A DNA stretch of 64,000 nucleotides from Akkermansia muciniphila (lineage in GTDB: Bacteria > Verrucomicrobiota > Verrucomicrobiia > Verrucomicrobiales > Akkermansiaceae), in contig NZ_CP156688.1 in assembly GCF_040616545.1 (NCBI RefSeq), positions 2,046,001-2,110,000 on the forward strand. Reading direction: 5' to 3'. Under the pieces are notes generated by a model that was not told where the DNA came from, did not search any database, and saw only the letters and a program-made list of their open reading frames with translations. Of the stretch, positions 42,813-50,881 are shown one piece after another; the stretch's first letter is position 1; the number at the start of each line of letters is the position of its first letter. The position numbers and the translations under genes are program-made.

Positions 42813-43328
42813 TTAGTGGTGGCCGCACCCGCAGCCGCCGTCCTTGTGATCGTGGTCATGATCGCAATTGCCGTCACAGTCGCAGCTATCCTTGTCGCAG
42901 CTGCCGCCGCAGGAGCAGGAAGACTCGGAACTCATCGCGCGCTGGCGGGCTTCTTCAATTTCTTCCGGAGTGGGGGCATGGCCAAGATCAATGGACATGC
43001 CCAGGTACTGGTTGATGGTGTTCAGGAGTTCGTCAATGGTCTGGCGCGCTTCCAGGAAGCCGCGTGCCGCGTCGTTCTTGATCACGTTTTCACGCAGGGA
43101 ATCAAACTTGGCAATTTCTTCTTCCGTGGGGGGCATGCCGGCCAGGTGCTTGTTGCGCAGTTCTTCGCCGTAGGCATTCACTTCTTCAAAAAGCTTGGTT
43201 GCCTCGGGGTTCTGGAAAAAGAGGCCGATTTTCGCCTTGGCGGCCACAACCTGGTCTTCCTTGGCAAGCATGTTGCAGAGGGCTTCCGTGGCAGTGCGCA
43301 GGTTGTCATTGAGAACGGGGGTATTCAT
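42813..43328 (-). CDS. YlbF/YmcA-like helical protein with Cys/His-rich tail
   Basis: 171 residues. The first ~130 are all-helical (VVAAKAKIGLFFQNPEATKL, FEEVNAYGEELRNK, LEARQTIDELLNTINQYLGM), the pattern of the YlbF/YmcA family, which in Bacillus supports mRNA maturation with RNase Y. From about residue 135 the protein changes into a metal-binding tail (CSCGGSCDKDSCDCDGNC, then HDHDH and CGCGHH). The tail is unusual for the family and suggests metal storage, sensing or an Fe-S site. Upstream (to the right) lies the first inverted-repeat segment. Confidence 0.8.
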   Translation of the reverse strand: MNTPVLNDNLRTATEALCNMLAKEDQVVAAKAKIGLFFQNPEATKLFEEVNAYGEELRNKHLAGMPPTEEEIAKFDSLRENVIKNDAARGFLEARQTIDELLNTINQYLGMSIDLGHAPTPEEIEEARQRAMSSESSCSCGGSCDKDSCDCDGNCDHDHDHKDGGCGCGHH

Positions 43329-43409
43329 ATGAAATCCATTTAATCATGGCTTTCAACGCAGGGCAACCCGGTTGCGAGGCATGGCGTGCATTTTCGTGTC
43401 AGGGTGTTC

Positions 43410-43427
43410 GCGGATTAGGAATCCGAA
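43410..43427 (+). repeat. Inverton 1, left 18-bp inverted repeat
   Basis: GCGGATTAGGAATCCGAA. Exact reverse complement of 43581-43598. Contains the inner palindrome CGGATT-AGG-AATCCG. Confidence 0.95.
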
Positions 43428-43575
43428 TGCGATAACCAACAACGCAAAAAGTAAACAAAAATATATTATAATCAAGAGTATATGATACTTCTCTAACAAA
43501 TATTTTCTTCAACGGCAATATACGGGAAAATAATGGATAGTATTGGAGAAATGTATTTGTGATGAAAAAGTAATA

Positions 43576-43603
43576 TTGACTTCGGATTCCTAATCCGCAC
43601 AAT
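43576..43603 (+). promoter_or_regulatory. Promoter across the inverton 1 boundary
   Basis: A -35 TTGACT at 43576-43581 (five of its six bases inside the invertible core) and a -10-like CACAAT at 43598-43603, 16-base spacer filled by the repeat. The predicted start is near 43610, about 13 bases before the ATG at 43623. Confidence 0.5.
43581..43598 (-). repeat. Inverton 1, right 18-bp inverted repeat
   Basis: TTCGGATTCCTAATCCGC, exact reverse complement of 43410-43427; ends 24 bases before the start codon of the next gene. Confidence 0.95.
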
Positions 43604-43622
43604 CCCGTTTGTTGTTCAGCCT

Positions 43623-45128
43623 ATGGCAGGAAAAAATAATCCCTTAGCTCCCTTGGGGTGGAAAATTCCGTTAGCGCTCCTTATTTGGTCTGTTATGGTG
43701 GTGGGTGCGTGTTCGGATACGTCCCCCTTGTATTCCTTTTATCCTTCTCCGGACCCTTCCATTTTCTTCATGTTCGGACGCGGACTCCTTCATGGCCTTC
43801 TCCCCTATGTGGAAATGGCGGACAGCAAGGGTCCCCTGCTGGTGTGGATTTATTACGCCGCCGCCTGGATTGACGGACATTCATTTGCCGGAATATTCCT
43901 CATTCAGTGCGTAACCCTTTTTACGACGCTTTTACTGGCTTGCAGGACGGCGCGCTTTTATCTGTCACGGCGCGGCAGCCTGCTGGCTTCCATGCTGCTG
44001 TGCCTGTTTCTGTTTGATTCATTCCCCTTCCAGCGCGGGGGCGGGGTGGAGGAACTGTGCTGGCCAGGGATGGCGGCCGTGGTTTACGGGCTGGTGCGGT
44101 ATTTCCGGATGCGGGACAGGCGCAGCCTGCTGTTCCTGTCCGGAGTAGCCGGGGTATTTGCCGGGGCTGCCTTCATGATGAAGTTTTCCATAGCCTTTCC
44201 CGTGTGCGCCTTAAGCGGGGTTCTGTGCCTGTGGCTGTGGTGGAACGGATGGAAAAAAGAGGCGGCGGCGGCTCTGGGGATGACGGCAGCCGGGCTCCTG
44301 GCCGTGGTGGTTCCCTGTTCGGCTTGGCTGGTATTCCACGGCGTTTGGAAAGAAGCGATGAATGAATACCTGTTGTGCTCCGTGCGTTATGGAACGGTGG
44401 CCCAGGAGGCTACGTGGTGGGCCAAACTCCTGAGGCCGGCTCCGGTCCGCTGCCTGTCCGACATATTGATGTGGGCGGCTGTCATCTGGGCTCTGGCAAT
44501 AGCGGGATGGCGTCAGTTAAAAACGCAAAAAGCGCTCCTGTTCACGGCCCTGTTGTATATCTTCTTCAAGGTGGAGATGTTCAGCGTGTACAACTACTAT
44601 TACAACTCCATCCTTTCACCCATGATGATCTGGGTGACCATCTTCTTCGTGGCCCAGGCGGAACGGCGCTTTTCCCTGCGCCTGCCGCGGATGGCGGCCG
44701 GAACGCTGGCCATTGTCTGCCTCACGGGAGCCGGAATGGCTGCCGGGCTGACGGGGGCCGTCCGGAAAGGAGATTTTGTCTGGAACGGCAGGGATCTTCA
44801 TTCCCCCGCCGTCCGGGAACGGCTGGCCCCGTTTTCCGGAGCCTCCGTCCTGTATCTGGGCTGGCTGGACAGGGGCTTCGGCATTACCTGGGACTGGAAG
44901 CCCTGCGGAAGATATTGGTTCCTCCAGAATTTCCCGTCGGAAGAAATGGTCAGGGAGCAATATAATTACATTGAGCAGGGTCTGCCGGATATCATCCACA
45001 CCAGTTCACGGGATGATGATTCTTTTCTGCGGCAGCACGGCTATAAGCCCTTGATGCCGGGGCTGGACAAGGGGGAATTCTGGTGCCGGGTGTCGGAAGC
45101 GGAAAACAGGCCGTCCTCTGAAGAATAA
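43623..45128 (+). CDS. Multi-pass membrane glycosyltransferase-like protein (GT-C type)
   Basis: 501 residues with about ten to eleven hydrophobic helices and a soluble tail of ~110 residues. Early in the protein is MADSKGPLLVWIYYAAAW; an acidic residue plus DSKGPL in the first external loop is typical of GT39/GT83-like transferases that use lipid-linked sugars. The tail reads SGASVLYLGWLDRGFGITWD. Predicted role: sugar transfer at the outer face of the inner membrane, for surface glycan or protein glycosylation. Its only plausible promoter lies on the edge of inverton 1, so expression is probably phase-variable. Confidence 0.8.
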   Translation: MAGKNNPLAPLGWKIPLALLIWSVMVVGACSDTSPLYSFYPSPDPSIFFMFGRGLLHGLLPYVEMADSKGPLLVWIYYAAAWIDGHSFAGIFLIQCVTLFTTLLLACRTARFYLSRRGSLLASMLLCLFLFDSFPFQRGGGVEELCWPGMAAVVYGLVRYFRMRDRRSLLFLSGVAGVFAGAAFMMKFSIAFPVCALSGVLCLWLWWNGWKKEAAAALGMTAAGLLAVVVPCSAWLVFHGVWKEAMNEYLLCSVRYGTVAQEATWWAKLLRPAPVRCLSDILMWAAVIWALAIAGWRQLKTQKALLFTALLYIFFKVEMFSVYNYYYNSILSPMMIWVTIFFVAQAERRFSLRLPRMAAGTLAIVCLTGAGMAAGLTGAVRKGDFVWNGRDLHSPAVRERLAPFSGASVLYLGWLDRGFGITWDWKPCGRYWFLQNFPSEEMVREQYNYIEQGLPDIIHTSSRDDDSFLRQHGYKPLMPGLDKGEFWCRVSEAENRPSSEE

Positions 45129-45903: not shown

Positions 45904-45924
45904 CGGATTTCCAATCCGGAGACA
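45904..45924 (+). repeat. Inverton 2, left 21-bp inverted repeat
   Basis: Begins CGGATTTCCAATCCGG and ends AGACA; exact reverse complement of 46168-46188. Inner palindrome CGGATT-TCC-AATCCG, the same core as inverton 1. Confidence 0.95.
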
Positions 45925-46109
45925 AGCTATAAATTTGAAAAAAAGCATTTAATACAAAATTCTTTCCGCCATAGACAGAAAATTTGAATAGCCGGAAGAC
46001 GTGCCTCCGGGAAAGAAACAGATGGGAATTTTCCTATCCTTCCTGTTGGCATCAGGATTTTTCAAGGAACAAAAAAGCTTGTCCTCAAAATGTTGTGGGT
46101 TAGTTGCAT

Positions 46110-46118
46110 TGATATTAT
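46110..46118 (+). promoter_or_regulatory. Possible extended -10 promoter inside inverton 2
   Basis: TGATATTAT fits the TGnTAtnnT form of an extended -10. A TTGTGG at 46093 is too close (14-base spacer) to be a good -35. It would read right towards 46219 and 46451. Confidence 0.35.
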
Positions 46119-46167
46119 CTCCCGTTCCAGGGACGATTCTTCTTTCAGGCTGTTGGCGTATGGGCCC

Positions 46168-46188
46168 TGTCTCCGGATTGGAAATCCG
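46168..46188 (-). repeat. Inverton 2, right 21-bp inverted repeat
   Basis: Begins TGTCTCCGGATTGG and ends AAATCCG; exact reverse complement of 45904-45924. Confidence 0.95.
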
Positions 46189-46218
46189 CTAATTTGCATT
46201 CATTCCTTACTGGAAAAC

Positions 46219-46398: not shown

Positions 46399-46450
46399 CT
46401 TCTGAAAATTGCTCCAAATCGACTCATCCGTTCCACATCCATTCAATACC

Positions 46451-49400
46451 ATGAGACCACACCTTCCTTCCTCTTTGCTCCGCTACTTGCTTGCCGGCCT
46501 GTTCATCTGCACCTTCCCGGCCGCATCCGGTGCGGACTACTCTGTGAACAACACCCAGTCCACCATGCCGGGCAGCAACCTGTACGGCACGTTTGAAGAA
46601 TTGAGGGCATCCGGTTTGCTGCGTGCCGAAGACACGGTTGTCCTGCATAACGACGACTCCACGCTGACCGGAGGCTTGAATCTTCTCATTAGCGTTCAGT
46701 CCGGCAACGCGGCGGTAGCGCGCACGCTGGATCTGGCTGGACTGGGAACAACTCCCATGTTTTTCCTGAAGAAAGGAGACCATAGCGCGAACATGAATTC
46801 CATCATCTGGGAGAATGCGGGCAACCGGGTTCTGCGTGTGGAGGGATTCGGCAGCAATGCCACCCTGAATCTTACCGGAGCGGTCACGTTCCGCAACAAT
46901 ACGGGAATCTACGATGGTTCCACCGCTCCGGGCGGCGGCGCGATTGCCGTTCAGGGCCAGGGTCTCGCTTCAGTCACGCTGGCTGATCATATTGTCTTCA
47001 CTGGAAATTACGCATCTTCCTCAAGCGGAACCGTCACAGGAGGCGCGATTCTGGCGTTCTCCAACGACGCCCGCATCACTCTGGGCAACGGCGCCGTTTT
47101 CCATGCCAACTATGTTTTGGCTTCAGCCACGGCAGGCGGCTGTGGCGGCGCAATATTCACCAAGGGCGGTTCCTCCTCCATTGAAATAGGCGATGATGCC
47201 ACGTTTACCGACAACTACGTCCAGGCCGGCAAGTCCAGCTACGGAGGAGCGATAGGAGCCGACAGAAACGCCACTTCCATTACCCTGGGAGACCGCGCGA
47301 CTTTCAGCGGCAACCATATTTCCACCTCGGCGGACGGAGCTGCCAGCGAAGGGGGAGCGGTCAGTACCTACATCACGATCGGAGACGCCTCCGTCACGCT
47401 GGGAGACAGGGCCTCCTTCACCGGGAATTACATCTCGGCCGCCGGAACGGGAAAAGGGGCCGGAGGAGCGATTGCGGTGCGGGCAAATGCGGGGCCTGCG
47501 TCCCTCACCGTTGGTGCTGATGCAAGCTTTACGGGCAATTACATCTCCGCATCATCCGGTGACGGAGGCGCAATCTGGATGTCTTCAGGTGGCACCTGCA
47601 TTCTGGGAGCCAACGTTTCCTTCATCGGGAATTACATTCAGGCGTCTTCCGGCCGCGGCGGCGCGATTTACCTGGGAAATCAACAGCTGACCATTGAGGA
47701 CGGGGCGAATTTCACGGACAATTACGCGCCCACGGCAGGGGGAGCCATCCTGATCAAAAATACGTCCAACCCCACCCACCAATTCCTGGCGCAGACCCGC
47801 GACGTGCTTTTCAGCGGCAACATGACAGGGGGAACCTTCACGCGCAGCGATAACGGAACATTTACCGTAGACGGAGGAACAGCCAACGCCATTCATTTTG
47901 AAACGCAAGGCTCTTTGCAGTTGGCGGCCGGAGAAGGACGGAACATCCAATTTGACGACCCGATCACCGCAGGGAATTATTCGATCATGCTCACGATCAA
48001 CCGGTATACGGATGACGGAGGGGCTGATCAAGACACCTCCGGAACAGTCGTCTTCAGCGGAACACGCTATCAGGGTACGGATGCCCATCTGGTCGCCAGC
48101 CGTTACAACGACTTCCGGGGAAAGACCACTGTCTGCGGAGGTATGCTGGAACTCAGGGACGGAGTCATTTTCGGACGCACGGGGAGCATGACGGATATGG
48201 TAACCTCCTTTACGCTCAATACCGGAGCCACCCTTCGAAGCAAAGGCGCCGCCAGTGAGATCAACGCCGCCTCTATCGTCCTCAACGGCACGGTAGATAC
48301 CGGTGGCACACTTGTTCTGAATGGAAACGTCACAGCCGCCGACACGACGCTCAAAACCGGACAGGGAGCCCTCGACCTGAGGAATACCGGAACCAATCTG
48401 TTCACGAACGGAGTGGCTCTCAACGAAGGCAGCATCCTGATTAACGGCATGGAACAGATACGGACCGGCTCTGGCGCGTACATCACTGGTTCCGGCACGC
48501 TGGACATTCAGTCCGCCGGCGTCGTAGCCCTCTCGGATTCGCTGACCGGATTTGCCGGAACCATCTCCTTGACCGATACCCGGCTCCGTCCGGACGCCAC
48601 GGGGCAGGCCGTGCTCGGCACCGCAACTTTGCGCCTTGGAAGCGGCTCCGAACTCTCCGTCACGGAAAACTTCTCCATCAGCAAGCTGCATCTGGCCGGA
48701 GGAACGCTTACTGTCCATGTAGACGGTGACGCCTCCCGGCTGGAACACCAGCTTTCCGTCTCCGGCAGTCTTGACATCACGTCGGCATCCACGCTGGCCG
48801 TCTCCGGCCTGAAAGACAGTCTGGACAGCATCACTCCTCAGCCGGGCTTCCTGGACCGCGATCTTCAGGAACTGGCCCTGGACGGCACCATCAACGCAGA
48901 CGCCCTGCTGGTGGTACAAGCCGGAAATGTCGCGAACACAACTATTCTGGACCTGGTGGACGCTGATACGGGCGAAGCCATCACCAGTGGAGAGGAACGC
49001 GAAGTCGCCTATCAGGATACCGTTACCGCGACCTACGGCTATATTGCCGTAGCCGGCACCAACGAGCACAGCGGCCAGACGGGGATCCACCTCACCTACG
49101 GGCTCAAGGAATTGAGTATCCACGATGGGAAAACCTGGATTCTGGCCGCTCCGGCCGATCCGAACAGCGACCGGACGCTCAGCGCCCGGATCACAGGCAG
49201 CGGCGCGCTGCAACTGAACAGCGACGCGACCGGCATCACCATCACCTCCGCCGCGAACCACACGGGGGGGACCCTCATCAACTCCGGCCTGGTTACTGCC
49301 GGTGCGGACAACCTCTTCAGCGCCGGAATCCTGGAGGTCAAAGAAGGCGCAGCGTTCGACACGGGCGCCACCGCACAAACCAACAGCGAAGGGTTTATTC

Positions 49401-50881
49401 TGCAAGGTTTGCTCAAGGGCGACCAGGCGTTCTCCAACACGGGCGCCATGCATGTCTCCACCAGCGCACAGGTGGAATCGGCACTAGCCAACACCGGAAC
49501 GCTCCGATTGACCAATACCTCGAATTCAGGGAAGGATTTCCTGCTTTCGGGAGGCCTGAACGGCGACGGAGGACATGTGGCCTTTGAAGGAACCGGACGT
49601 GACACATTGAAGCTCGGCTCCCTCTCCGGCTCGCAGGCCTTTACAATGAACATCAATCTGGTCGCCGGGACAAGCGACCGCATCGCCATAGCCGGGGAGG
49701 CTTCCGGCACGCACACGGTTCATTTCGTCCTGCAAGGCGACATTCCCTCCTCCCCGTCCTTCATATCCGACATGGTCACATGGGGCAGCCTGGCGGAAGG
49801 CAGTGATGCGGCAACGCTCTTCACCGGAACGCTGGATGCGGGTTTCTACTCCTACGGTCTTAAAATCAACGCTACAGGCAATGGGTACGACCTGTCGCCG
49901 CAGGGATATAACAACCTGGGCGGTGTGCTGCTCAATGTGCTTGGGTGCATGAGTACGGGATGGTTCGAACAGCTTGACACTCTTTCCAAACGCATGGGAG
50001 ACCTGCGCATGGGAGCGGACTTTTACAGGCAGCAGGCCCAACAGGACAAGAATGCCGGAGAGGCTCCCAGGGGGCACTACTGGGCGCGCACGGCTTCCGG
50101 GCGCACGGATACGGACCTGGGCATTGCCGGAGTCTGCGGCTTTACGGAATACCATTATGGGGCAGACAGCGGCGCGGACTGGATTGTTGCGTCCGGAAGA
50201 AACAGCATGCTGGCCGCCGGCCTCTTCGGAGGCTATCGTCGAAGTGACCGCAGCTTCCATGATGGCTGGGGAAGCAAGGGCAGCACGGACAGCGGCTACG
50301 GAGGCCTTTACGCCTCATGGCTGCACAGCAGGGGGTGGTTTGCGGACGCGGTTCTCAAAGGGACGGGTTACAACGCTTCATGGACCGCGGTCCAGCCCGG
50401 AGGCACGGAACGGGGCAGCTACGACAACTGGGGGTTGGGAATGAGCCTGGAAGCCGGGCGGCAGTGGAGCTGCGCCAAAGGATGGTTCCTGGAACCCTCC
50501 GTGCAAATCGCATGGCTCCACTCCGGTTCTACGCATGTCGTCACGAACGCAGGCCTGGATGTGACGGGAAGCGCAGCTGACATCTGGCAATTTGCCGGAC
50601 GTCTGCGGGCCGGACGCACATGGAGCGTCAACGGAGGCTGCCAGTTGGTGCAGGGCTACGTGAAAACCGGCGTTGCGCAGCAAGCAAGCAATGGCGGTGA
50701 AGTAAAGGCCGCCGGCAACCAGTGGCGTCCGAATACGGATGGAATCCGCGGCATGGCCGGTTGCGGCGTGGCATGGCAGCTCAGCGCCCGCGATCAGGTG
50801 CACCTGGATTACGAATACGTCTACGGGGACAAATACGATCGTCCCTGGACGATCAATCTGGGGTACACGCGGAGCTTTTAA
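46451..50881 (+). CDS. Pmp-like autotransporter adhesin
   Basis: 1476 residues from ATG 46451 (MRPHLPSSLLRYLLAGLFIC), a signal peptide cut near ASGA. Residues ~146-456 carry ten FxxN motifs (FRNN, FTGN, FHAN, FTDN, FSGN) alternating with nine GGA(I/V) motifs, the two tetrapeptides that define chlamydial polymorphic membrane protein repeats. The middle (to ~1150) is a beta-helical passenger with autotransporter-associated strand repeats (ITGSGALQLNSDATGITITS). The last ~290 residues, from PRGHYWARTASGRTD, form the outer-membrane beta-barrel and end in the expected aromatic TRSF. Type V secretion; probably surface-exposed adhesin. Long G+C-rich antisense frames inside it are shadows. Confidence 0.92.
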   Translation: MRPHLPSSLLRYLLAGLFICTFPAASGADYSVNNTQSTMPGSNLYGTFEELRASGLLRAEDTVVLHNDDSTLTGGLNLLISVQSGNAAVARTLDLAGLGTTPMFFLKKGDHSANMNSIIWENAGNRVLRVEGFGSNATLNLTGAVTFRNNTGIYDGSTAPGGGAIAVQGQGLASVTLADHIVFTGNYASSSSGTVTGGAILAFSNDARITLGNGAVFHANYVLASATAGGCGGAIFTKGGSSSIEIGDDATFTDNYVQAGKSSYGGAIGADRNATSITLGDRATFSGNHISTSADGAASEGGAVSTYITIGDASVTLGDRASFTGNYISAAGTGKGAGGAIAVRANAGPASLTVGADASFTGNYISASSGDGGAIWMSSGGTCILGANVSFIGNYIQASSGRGGAIYLGNQQLTIEDGANFTDNYAPTAGGAILIKNTSNPTHQFLAQTRDVLFSGNMTGGTFTRSDNGTFTVDGGTANAIHFETQGSLQLAAGEGRNIQFDDPITAGNYSIMLTINRYTDDGGADQDTSGTVVFSGTRYQGTDAHLVASRYNDFRGKTTVCGGMLELRDGVIFGRTGSMTDMVTSFTLNTGATLRSKGAASEINAASIVLNGTVDTGGTLVLNGNVTAADTTLKTGQGALDLRNTGTNLFTNGVALNEGSILINGMEQIRTGSGAYITGSGTLDIQSAGVVALSDSLTGFAGTISLTDTRLRPDATGQAVLGTATLRLGSGSELSVTENFSISKLHLAGGTLTVHVDGDASRLEHQLSVSGSLDITSASTLAVSGLKDSLDSITPQPGFLDRDLQELALDGTINADALLVVQAGNVANTTILDLVDADTGEAITSGEEREVAYQDTVTATYGYIAVAGTNEHSGQTGIHLTYGLKELSIHDGKTWILAAPADPNSDRTLSARITGSGALQLNSDATGITITSAANHTGGTLINSGLVTAGADNLFSAGILEVKEGAAFDTGATAQTNSEGFILQGLLKGDQAFSNTGAMHVSTSAQVESALANTGTLRLTNTSNSGKDFLLSGGLNGDGGHVAFEGTGRDTLKLGSLSGSQAFTMNINLVAGTSDRIAIAGEASGTHTVHFVLQGDIPSSPSFISDMVTWGSLAEGSDAATLFTGTLDAGFYSYGLKINATGNGYDLSPQGYNNLGGVLLNVLGCMSTGWFEQLDTLSKRMGDLRMGADFYRQQAQQDKNAGEAPRGHYWARTASGRTDTDLGIAGVCGFTEYHYGADSGADWIVASGRNSMLAAGLFGGYRRSDRSFHDGWGSKGSTDSGYGGLYASWLHSRGWFADAVLKGTGYNASWTAVQPGGTERGSYDNWGLGMSLEAGRQWSCAKGWFLEPSVQIAWLHSGSTHVVTNAGLDVTGSAADIWQFAGRLRAGRTWSVNGGCQLVQGYVKTGVAQQASNGGEVKAAGNQWRPNTDGIRGMAGCGVAWQLSARDQVHLDYEYVYGDKYDRPWTINLGYTRSF
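46889..47821 (+). repeat. Pmp-type FxxN / GGA(I/V) repeat block
   Basis: Ten FxxN and nine GGA(I/V) tetrapeptides alternate with a spacing of about 25-40 residues, from FRNN (46889) to the last FSGN (47810-47821). The spacers share IxLGDxAxFxGNYIxA-like wording, so the block grew by internal duplication. Confidence 0.9.

Follow-up and report, generated by a model that had tools for sequence, protein, structure and literature searches.

A 153-base, A+T-rich segment enclosed by inverted repeats between two divergent genes raises the question of whether it is a promoter switch and, if so, which enzyme would turn it. It lies in the window, the whole stretch of 64,000 nucleotides analysed here, which corresponds to G000:C1:2046001-2110000 of a one-contig Akkermansia genome of 3,055,113 bases. 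The perfect 18-bp inverted repeats described in the initial annotation are present at 43410-43427 (+) and 43581-43598 (-), 153 bases apart, and a repeat finder lengthens both arms to 25 nt at 88%. Repeat and motif searches place the putative recombination sites, whose three central bases (NNN) are complementary, within these arms: CGGATT-AGG-AATCCG at 43411-43425 on the left and CGGATT-CCT-AATCCG, which would double as a promoter spacer, at 43583-43597 on the right. The cassette between them (43428-43580), delimited by an own-genome homology search, contains no gene, and inspection of the flanks found no direct duplication, both as originally described. A -35 hexamer, TTGACT (43576-43581, +), lies within the invertible DNA, a -10-like CACAAT (43598-43603, +) in the fixed flanking DNA, and an ATG at 43623, all at the positions first assigned to them. 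The ATG opens a gene (43623-45128, +) for a 501-aa protein whose match to PMT_2 (PF13231, E 3.3e-9) upholds its earlier description as a membrane glycosyltransferase-type protein and which we infer to be the regulated gene. On the other side, the best -10 candidate in the left flank matches at 2/6, so that the divergent gene (42813-43328, -), assigned to Com_YlbF by domain search, is probably not under control of the switch.

The initial annotation had suggested comparing related assemblies for the inverted form, and this form is found in two related species, G049 and G017. In both genomes, the cassette is reversed relative to both flanks, which are 94 and 97% identical to those of G000 in G049 and 89 and 90% identical in G017; thus both orientations of the 43410-43598 segment are seen between species. 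In G057, a genome of the same species, the contigs break at the element. The window element is one of 7 loci that are inverted in at least one comparison among 21 loci with homologous cassettes, defined by any BLAST cassette homology (32-100% covered) together with two conserved flanks, each matching over 150 bp or more at 75% or higher; the 7 include one locus, 2592966, at which paralogues were compared.

The sites at the window element belong to a large family. The 15-mer CGGATTNNNAATCCG, present in both arms, has 74 exact sites in G000 and the reversed control pattern has 0, so the repeats at 43410-43598 are not a product of chance. All 74 sites were located in the window and 38 other G000 stretches that we examined, giving 30 pairs with both arms exact, 12 with one mismatch in one arm and a doubtful one (1712800), plus a single additional site in tandem. 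Elements vary in the central NNN, which is complementary within the pair in 42/43 G000 pairs, and 72 of the 74 exact sites belong to the 42 pairs with complementary NNN. In G004, where pairing was ranked by arm mismatches first and 49/56 sites were examined, the NNN is complementary in 31/31 pairs. It also matches in 42/42 pairs of G017 and G049 (29 and 13, drawn from 50/65 and 25/63 sites), for which the pairing favoured matched NNN and discarded pairs with two or more NNN mismatches. Seven exact sites are unpaired (three in G017, one in G049 and three in G004). We take the matched centre to reflect a requirement of the crossover region. At one element (G000:C1:1359426-1359453), the right site is tandemly duplicated, as it is in G017 at C2:344785-344812. 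The loci G000:C1:1998618 and 2592966 are paralogous (77% over 1.2 kb); their cassettes, 94% identical, face opposite ways and have different NNN. A search of the genome with 43380-43640 found two further full-length copies (86% and 74%) and one partial copy, and the homology of the 43428-43580 cassette to these other cassettes (86%, 74%) stops at the arms. Among the 141 genomes drawn from the order, those outside Akkermansia hold 0-8 motif sites each, with two exceptions: G064 and G110, both of genus g15, have 16 and 17 CGGATTNNNAATCCG sites and lack any close relative of the recombinase discussed below.

The anatomy of these elements is conserved. TTGAC lies 7 or 8 bases inside the arm at 34 of the 86 ends of G000 elements and occurs elsewhere in the 40 inner bases of these ends only twice; a -35 of at least 5/6 is present at one end in 35/43 elements and at both ends in none. 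In the outer flank, TA is found at offset +1, which corresponds to a 17-bp spacing, at 27/86 ends compared with a mean of 5.3 at 19 other offsets. This combination of TTGAC inside the arm and TA outside it at a 17-bp spacing points to a split promoter, in which the -35 box would lie within the cassette, the -10 in the fixed flank, and the 15-bp recombination site would serve as the spacer. With the crude ORF calling used, TA flanks show only a weak link to the orientation of the nearest ORF (23/27 vs 39/59, p = 0.076). TA flank and -35 end are not associated (10 ON vs 17 not), as expected if the switches were caught in either state. For the window element, the assignment of CACAAT as the -10 stands in part: its position and its 16-base spacing from TTGACT are right and its letters are identical at the counterpart of 43598-43603 in G049 and G017, but it matches at only 4/6 and lies off the TA-enriched +1 offset of the sister elements. 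Inversion of the cassette in G049 and G017, and recurrence of the -35-inside, -10-outside layout in the sister elements, support the original reading of an invertible promoter and, at the level of sequence, that of 43410-43598 as a flippable on/off switch, one of about forty in the genome.

Dispersed copies whose homology ends at the arms, and the inverted repeats themselves, might be expected of a static MITE-like repeat spread by a transposase, with the resemblance to a promoter accidental. Such a repeat does not account for a cassette inverted between orthologous flanks in relatives or for the fixed -35 position at 34/86 ends, and the target-site duplication that is the hallmark of MITEs was not seen on inspection of the 43410-43598 flanks. 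Moreover, PMC13343947 describes flipping of sister elements. We regard the MITE explanation as extremely improbable.

The window contains a second inverton of 285 bp (45904-46188), absent from the initial annotation, with the sites CGGATTTCCAATCCG and CGGATTGGAAATCCG. Its -35-like TTGTCT (45920-45925) lies on the - strand, while a -10-like TAATTT (46190-46195, +) lies outside the element and an autotransporter gene (46409-50881, +) lies downstream, so that by this reading the second inverton would be OFF in this genome. Relative to G000, it is inverted in G049 and has the same orientation in G017.

Which enzyme might act on these sites? Four G000 proteins match Phage_integrase at E<=0.001: one is XerC-like, one XerD-like, and the other two are 377 and 363 aa long. 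At this threshold the genome also has a single serine recombinase, which is of the Mpi family. The 363-aa protein is encoded at G000:C1:2196297-2197385, 107 kb from the 43410-43598 element, next to a gene that by eye resembles speA. It matches PF00589 at 9.5e-10, over the cut-off, and scores over no NCBIfam cut-off. Inspection suggests R206, K233, R296, H319 and the Tyr after R328 as candidate catalytic residues; across the family, R, K, R, H and Tyr fall where they are expected, and Asp replaces the second His that many tyrosine recombinases have. An identical (100%) protein is present in A. muciniphila strain CSUN-56 AmIII. A one-sequence search found no PDB relative at E<=0.01, no relatives were found on plasmids, and four were found in phage records, three of them from Akkermansia. 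No CGGATTNNNAATCCG site lies within 1.5 kb on either side of the gene.

The distribution of this recombinase parallels that of the sites. An even sample of 59 genus genomes from a larger group includes 9 with an orthologue (at least 90% identical), whose site counts are 37-84. The remaining 50 comprise 48 genomes with 0-11 sites and two, G028 (88) and G013 (22), that have only relatives of 44-46%. Set as a prediction, the association held in newly drawn genomes: G100 and G121 (44 and 48 sites) have orthologues of 91% and 92%, and five others lack one, their best matches reaching at most 44%, with none at all in one. Altogether, orthologues are present in 11/13 site-rich Akkermansia genomes searched and in 0/51 site-poor ones, a distribution that may simply track one clade.

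The serine recombinase, a 206-aa invertase at G000:C1:2343210-2343827, matches NCBIfam NF009949 at 3.1e-101, over the cut-off, and has a 77% homologue in the site-rich G028; as a master enzyme of the kind found in Bacteroides, it would be a natural candidate. Yet at E<=0.001 no homologue is present in G057, of the same species and with 56 sites, or in the site-rich G049, G017, G047, G053, G004 and G013; merely 27-28% matches occur in G037 and G054, and a 77% homologue is found in G030, a genome with 1 site. The odd 3-bp centre of the sites is also ill-suited to the 2-bp overlap that serine recombinases use. With a homologue absent from seven of 11 site-rich genomes, we rejected the Mpi invertase as the cognate enzyme and hold the chance that it is the master as negligible; the Mpi-type analogy drawn in the initial annotation thus gives way to a likely tyrosine recombinase. 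By eye, the Mpi invertase gene adjoins an ORF resembling part of a DNA-modification enzyme. IS110/Piv-type (DEDD) inversion was likewise rejected, because PF01548 has no match in 10/11 orthologue-bearing genomes, G000 included.

A second line of evidence comes from relatives of the 363-aa recombinase, many of which have a switch of their own. We examined the neighbourhoods of 54 relatives (38-49% identical), 11 from a search, part of which had been inspected earlier, and 43 picked. The picks were mostly the best-listed copy per genome, supplemented by further copies from G011, G015, G036, G038, G050 and G054 and, where genomes are site-rich, by second copies; for L199 and L200, the adjacent sites were already known at the time of choice. 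An inverted 17-mer pair with at most 2 mismatches is present in the 500 bp upstream of 34/52 family genes with enough sequence, compared with 2/53 downstream and 0/52 in shuffled upstream sequence; by this criterion 18/52 lack an upstream pair, and one of the 34 matches, L092, is unlike the motif. An earlier exact-repeat test gave 15/31 among the first family loci vs 1/21 at other loci. The pairs at L084, L192, L199 and L200 have exact CGGATTNNNAATCCG in both arms; elsewhere the outer bases vary (CGGATT, CGCATT, AGGATT, CGAATT) and the TT-NNN-AA core mostly recurs. At the 33 loci other than L092, TA at offset 0/1 is found on the far flank in 32 and on the recombinase-side flank in 4, a TATAAT-like sequence (4/6 or better) on the far flank in 24 vs 1 on the recombinase side, and an inner -35 (at least 4/6) on the recombinase side in 25 compared with 7 on the far side. 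Far-flank TA together with a recombinase-side -35 suggests that the split promoter faces the far gene and was mostly caught OFF. The longest far ORFs, judged by eye at 18 loci, include autotransporter-like, outer-membrane and PEP-CTERM-like proteins and membrane enzymes, as well as nuclease-like, cytidylyltransferase-like and small proteins; some begin over 600 bp off. Akkermansia genomes poor in the motif (e.g. those of the L087, L123 and L126 loci) can hold as many as 22 recombinase-family matches, and many of their inspected recombinase loci have their own upstream inverted pair.

The housekeeping XerC/XerD pair might flip the sites instead, two of the four Phage_integrase matches of G000 being XerC/XerD-like, but this would leave the site pairs upstream of the other recombinase family unexplained, and we consider it very unlikely. 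The 363-aa tyrosine recombinase is thus the probable enzyme acting on the CGGATT..AATCCG sites. In our model, it would act in trans on about 42 site pairs, recombining two CGGATT-NNN-AATCCG sites and inverting the cassette between them. The -35 box would move with the cassette, the site would form a 16-17-bp spacer, and the -10 and start would remain outside; because the -35 is mobile and the -10 and start are fixed, inversion would assemble or dismantle the promoter of the 43623 membrane glycosyltransferase gene, for which the orientation in this genome would be the ON arrangement. On present evidence, we consider it very probable that the window element belongs, as a phase-variable promoter, to the published class of Akkermansia invertons and is flipped by this enzyme.

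Comparison of cassettes between loci suggests that they have also been swapped over evolution. Within G000, cassettes 1915159 and 2015901 are 97% identical over 331 bp, and the window cassette is 86% identical to that at 2185428; in both cases the homology ends at the arms and the flanks are unrelated. Conversely, in 9 comparisons between genomes, at 7 loci, conserved flanks enclose cassettes without detectable homology. The NNN differs in 8/9 of these comparisons (6/7 loci) vs 6/36 comparisons (5/21 loci) with homologous cassettes (Fisher p = 1e-4 by comparison, the comparisons being partly dependent, and 0.007 by locus). Wherever it differs, both arms change together, a count that covers paired sites, leaves the seven unpaired sites aside and follows a pairing step that would have removed any G017 and G049 pairs whose NNN are badly unmatched. 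At homologous cassettes, conservation of the NNN above the interior rate is not significant (16/21 loci the same vs 12.4 expected, P = 0.066).

Non-homologous cassettes at conserved loci could also have arisen by independent gain or rapid divergence, with no exchange by a recombinase. In line with this, conservation averages 83% in homologous cassettes vs 88% in their flanks, and the cassettes at G000 938954 and its G004 counterpart, of 171 and 174 bp, have no detectable homology. On the other hand, at five of the seven replaced G017 loci the cassettes, of 458-525 bp, are of one related type (61-74% alike), in contrast to 184-341 bp in G000; one locus among these five, and a further one among the seven, was assigned by a single flank. 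Moreover, the 97% identical cassettes at G000 1915159 and 2015901 have the same NNN while the orthologous loci differ (AGG in G049, and TGT in G017 at a locus assigned by one flank). Gain or divergence remains in our judgement a real contender, if short of probable. We tentatively propose, as a possibility to which we give rather less than even weight, that fixed pairs of attachment sites share exchangeable cassettes and that one tyrosine recombinase flips and rarely swaps them, while the NNN travels along with its cassette and limits cross-recombination; the set might have originated from self-contained recombinase-plus-switch modules, such as other Akkermansia species retain, once one recombinase turned into a trans-acting master.

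How much of this was known? The CGGATT..AATCCG motif of Akkermansia invertons is attributed to Jiang 2019 in PMC13343947, and the 43410-43598 element, whose arms carry this motif, is a new member of that published class. The same paper reports a cps1 inverton in both orientations. From the available part of PMC11892184, 32 A. muciniphila invertons are placed in group 138, members of which are reported to flip; nine links between invertons and invertases are given there, in Clostridia and Bacteroidia, with none named for group 138. A method searching within 5 kb would miss an enzyme distant from its sites, as here. PMC9241678 describes additional genes annotated as xerD in a single lineage of A. 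muciniphila, and our guess is that these may belong to the family of the 363-aa recombinase. In the accessible texts on invertons and phase variation in Akkermansia and Verrucomicrobiota, supplements aside, none named an enzyme or cassette exchange; the 43410-43598 locus may already be listed in the tables of Jiang 2019 or in figures or supplements of later papers. Relative to the literature searched, the inverton kind itself is known, and the probable enzyme, the split-promoter rule and the putative cassette exchange are new. Akkermansia, a mucus dweller of the gut, has been widely studied, and about forty switches, some of them preceding surface genes, are present in this genome. With one gene as the candidate, the question of who flips the invertons is reduced to one knockout, and cassette exchange, if true, would explain how such a network spreads and is rewired without a transposase.

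The published Akkermansia invertons share with the window element the motif, the genus and a position before surface genes, but the accessible accounts of the group describe no recombinase, split promoter or cassette exchange. The integrases of the Akkermansia prophages Chambord, Moulinsart and Chantilly are 26-39% identical to the 363-aa recombinase, and their 3.9-kb stretches lack an inverted 15-mer pair, unlike the loci of the recombinase family; among the matches listed, the window cassette gave only short matches in phage records, at E 0.05 or worse. The Mpi system of Bacteroides resembles the arrangement proposed here in that one trans-acting master enzyme controls many dispersed switches, but Mpi is a serine recombinase and each of its promoters lies wholly within the invertible segment, whereas here the enzyme is probably a tyrosine recombinase and the promoter would be split. 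Finally, integron gene cassettes and recombinase-mediated cassette exchange, like the system suggested here, combine fixed sites, exchangeable cassettes and a tyrosine recombinase; integrons differ in that their cassettes carry genes, while the Akkermansia sites form inverted pairs and what they would exchange are pieces of promoters.
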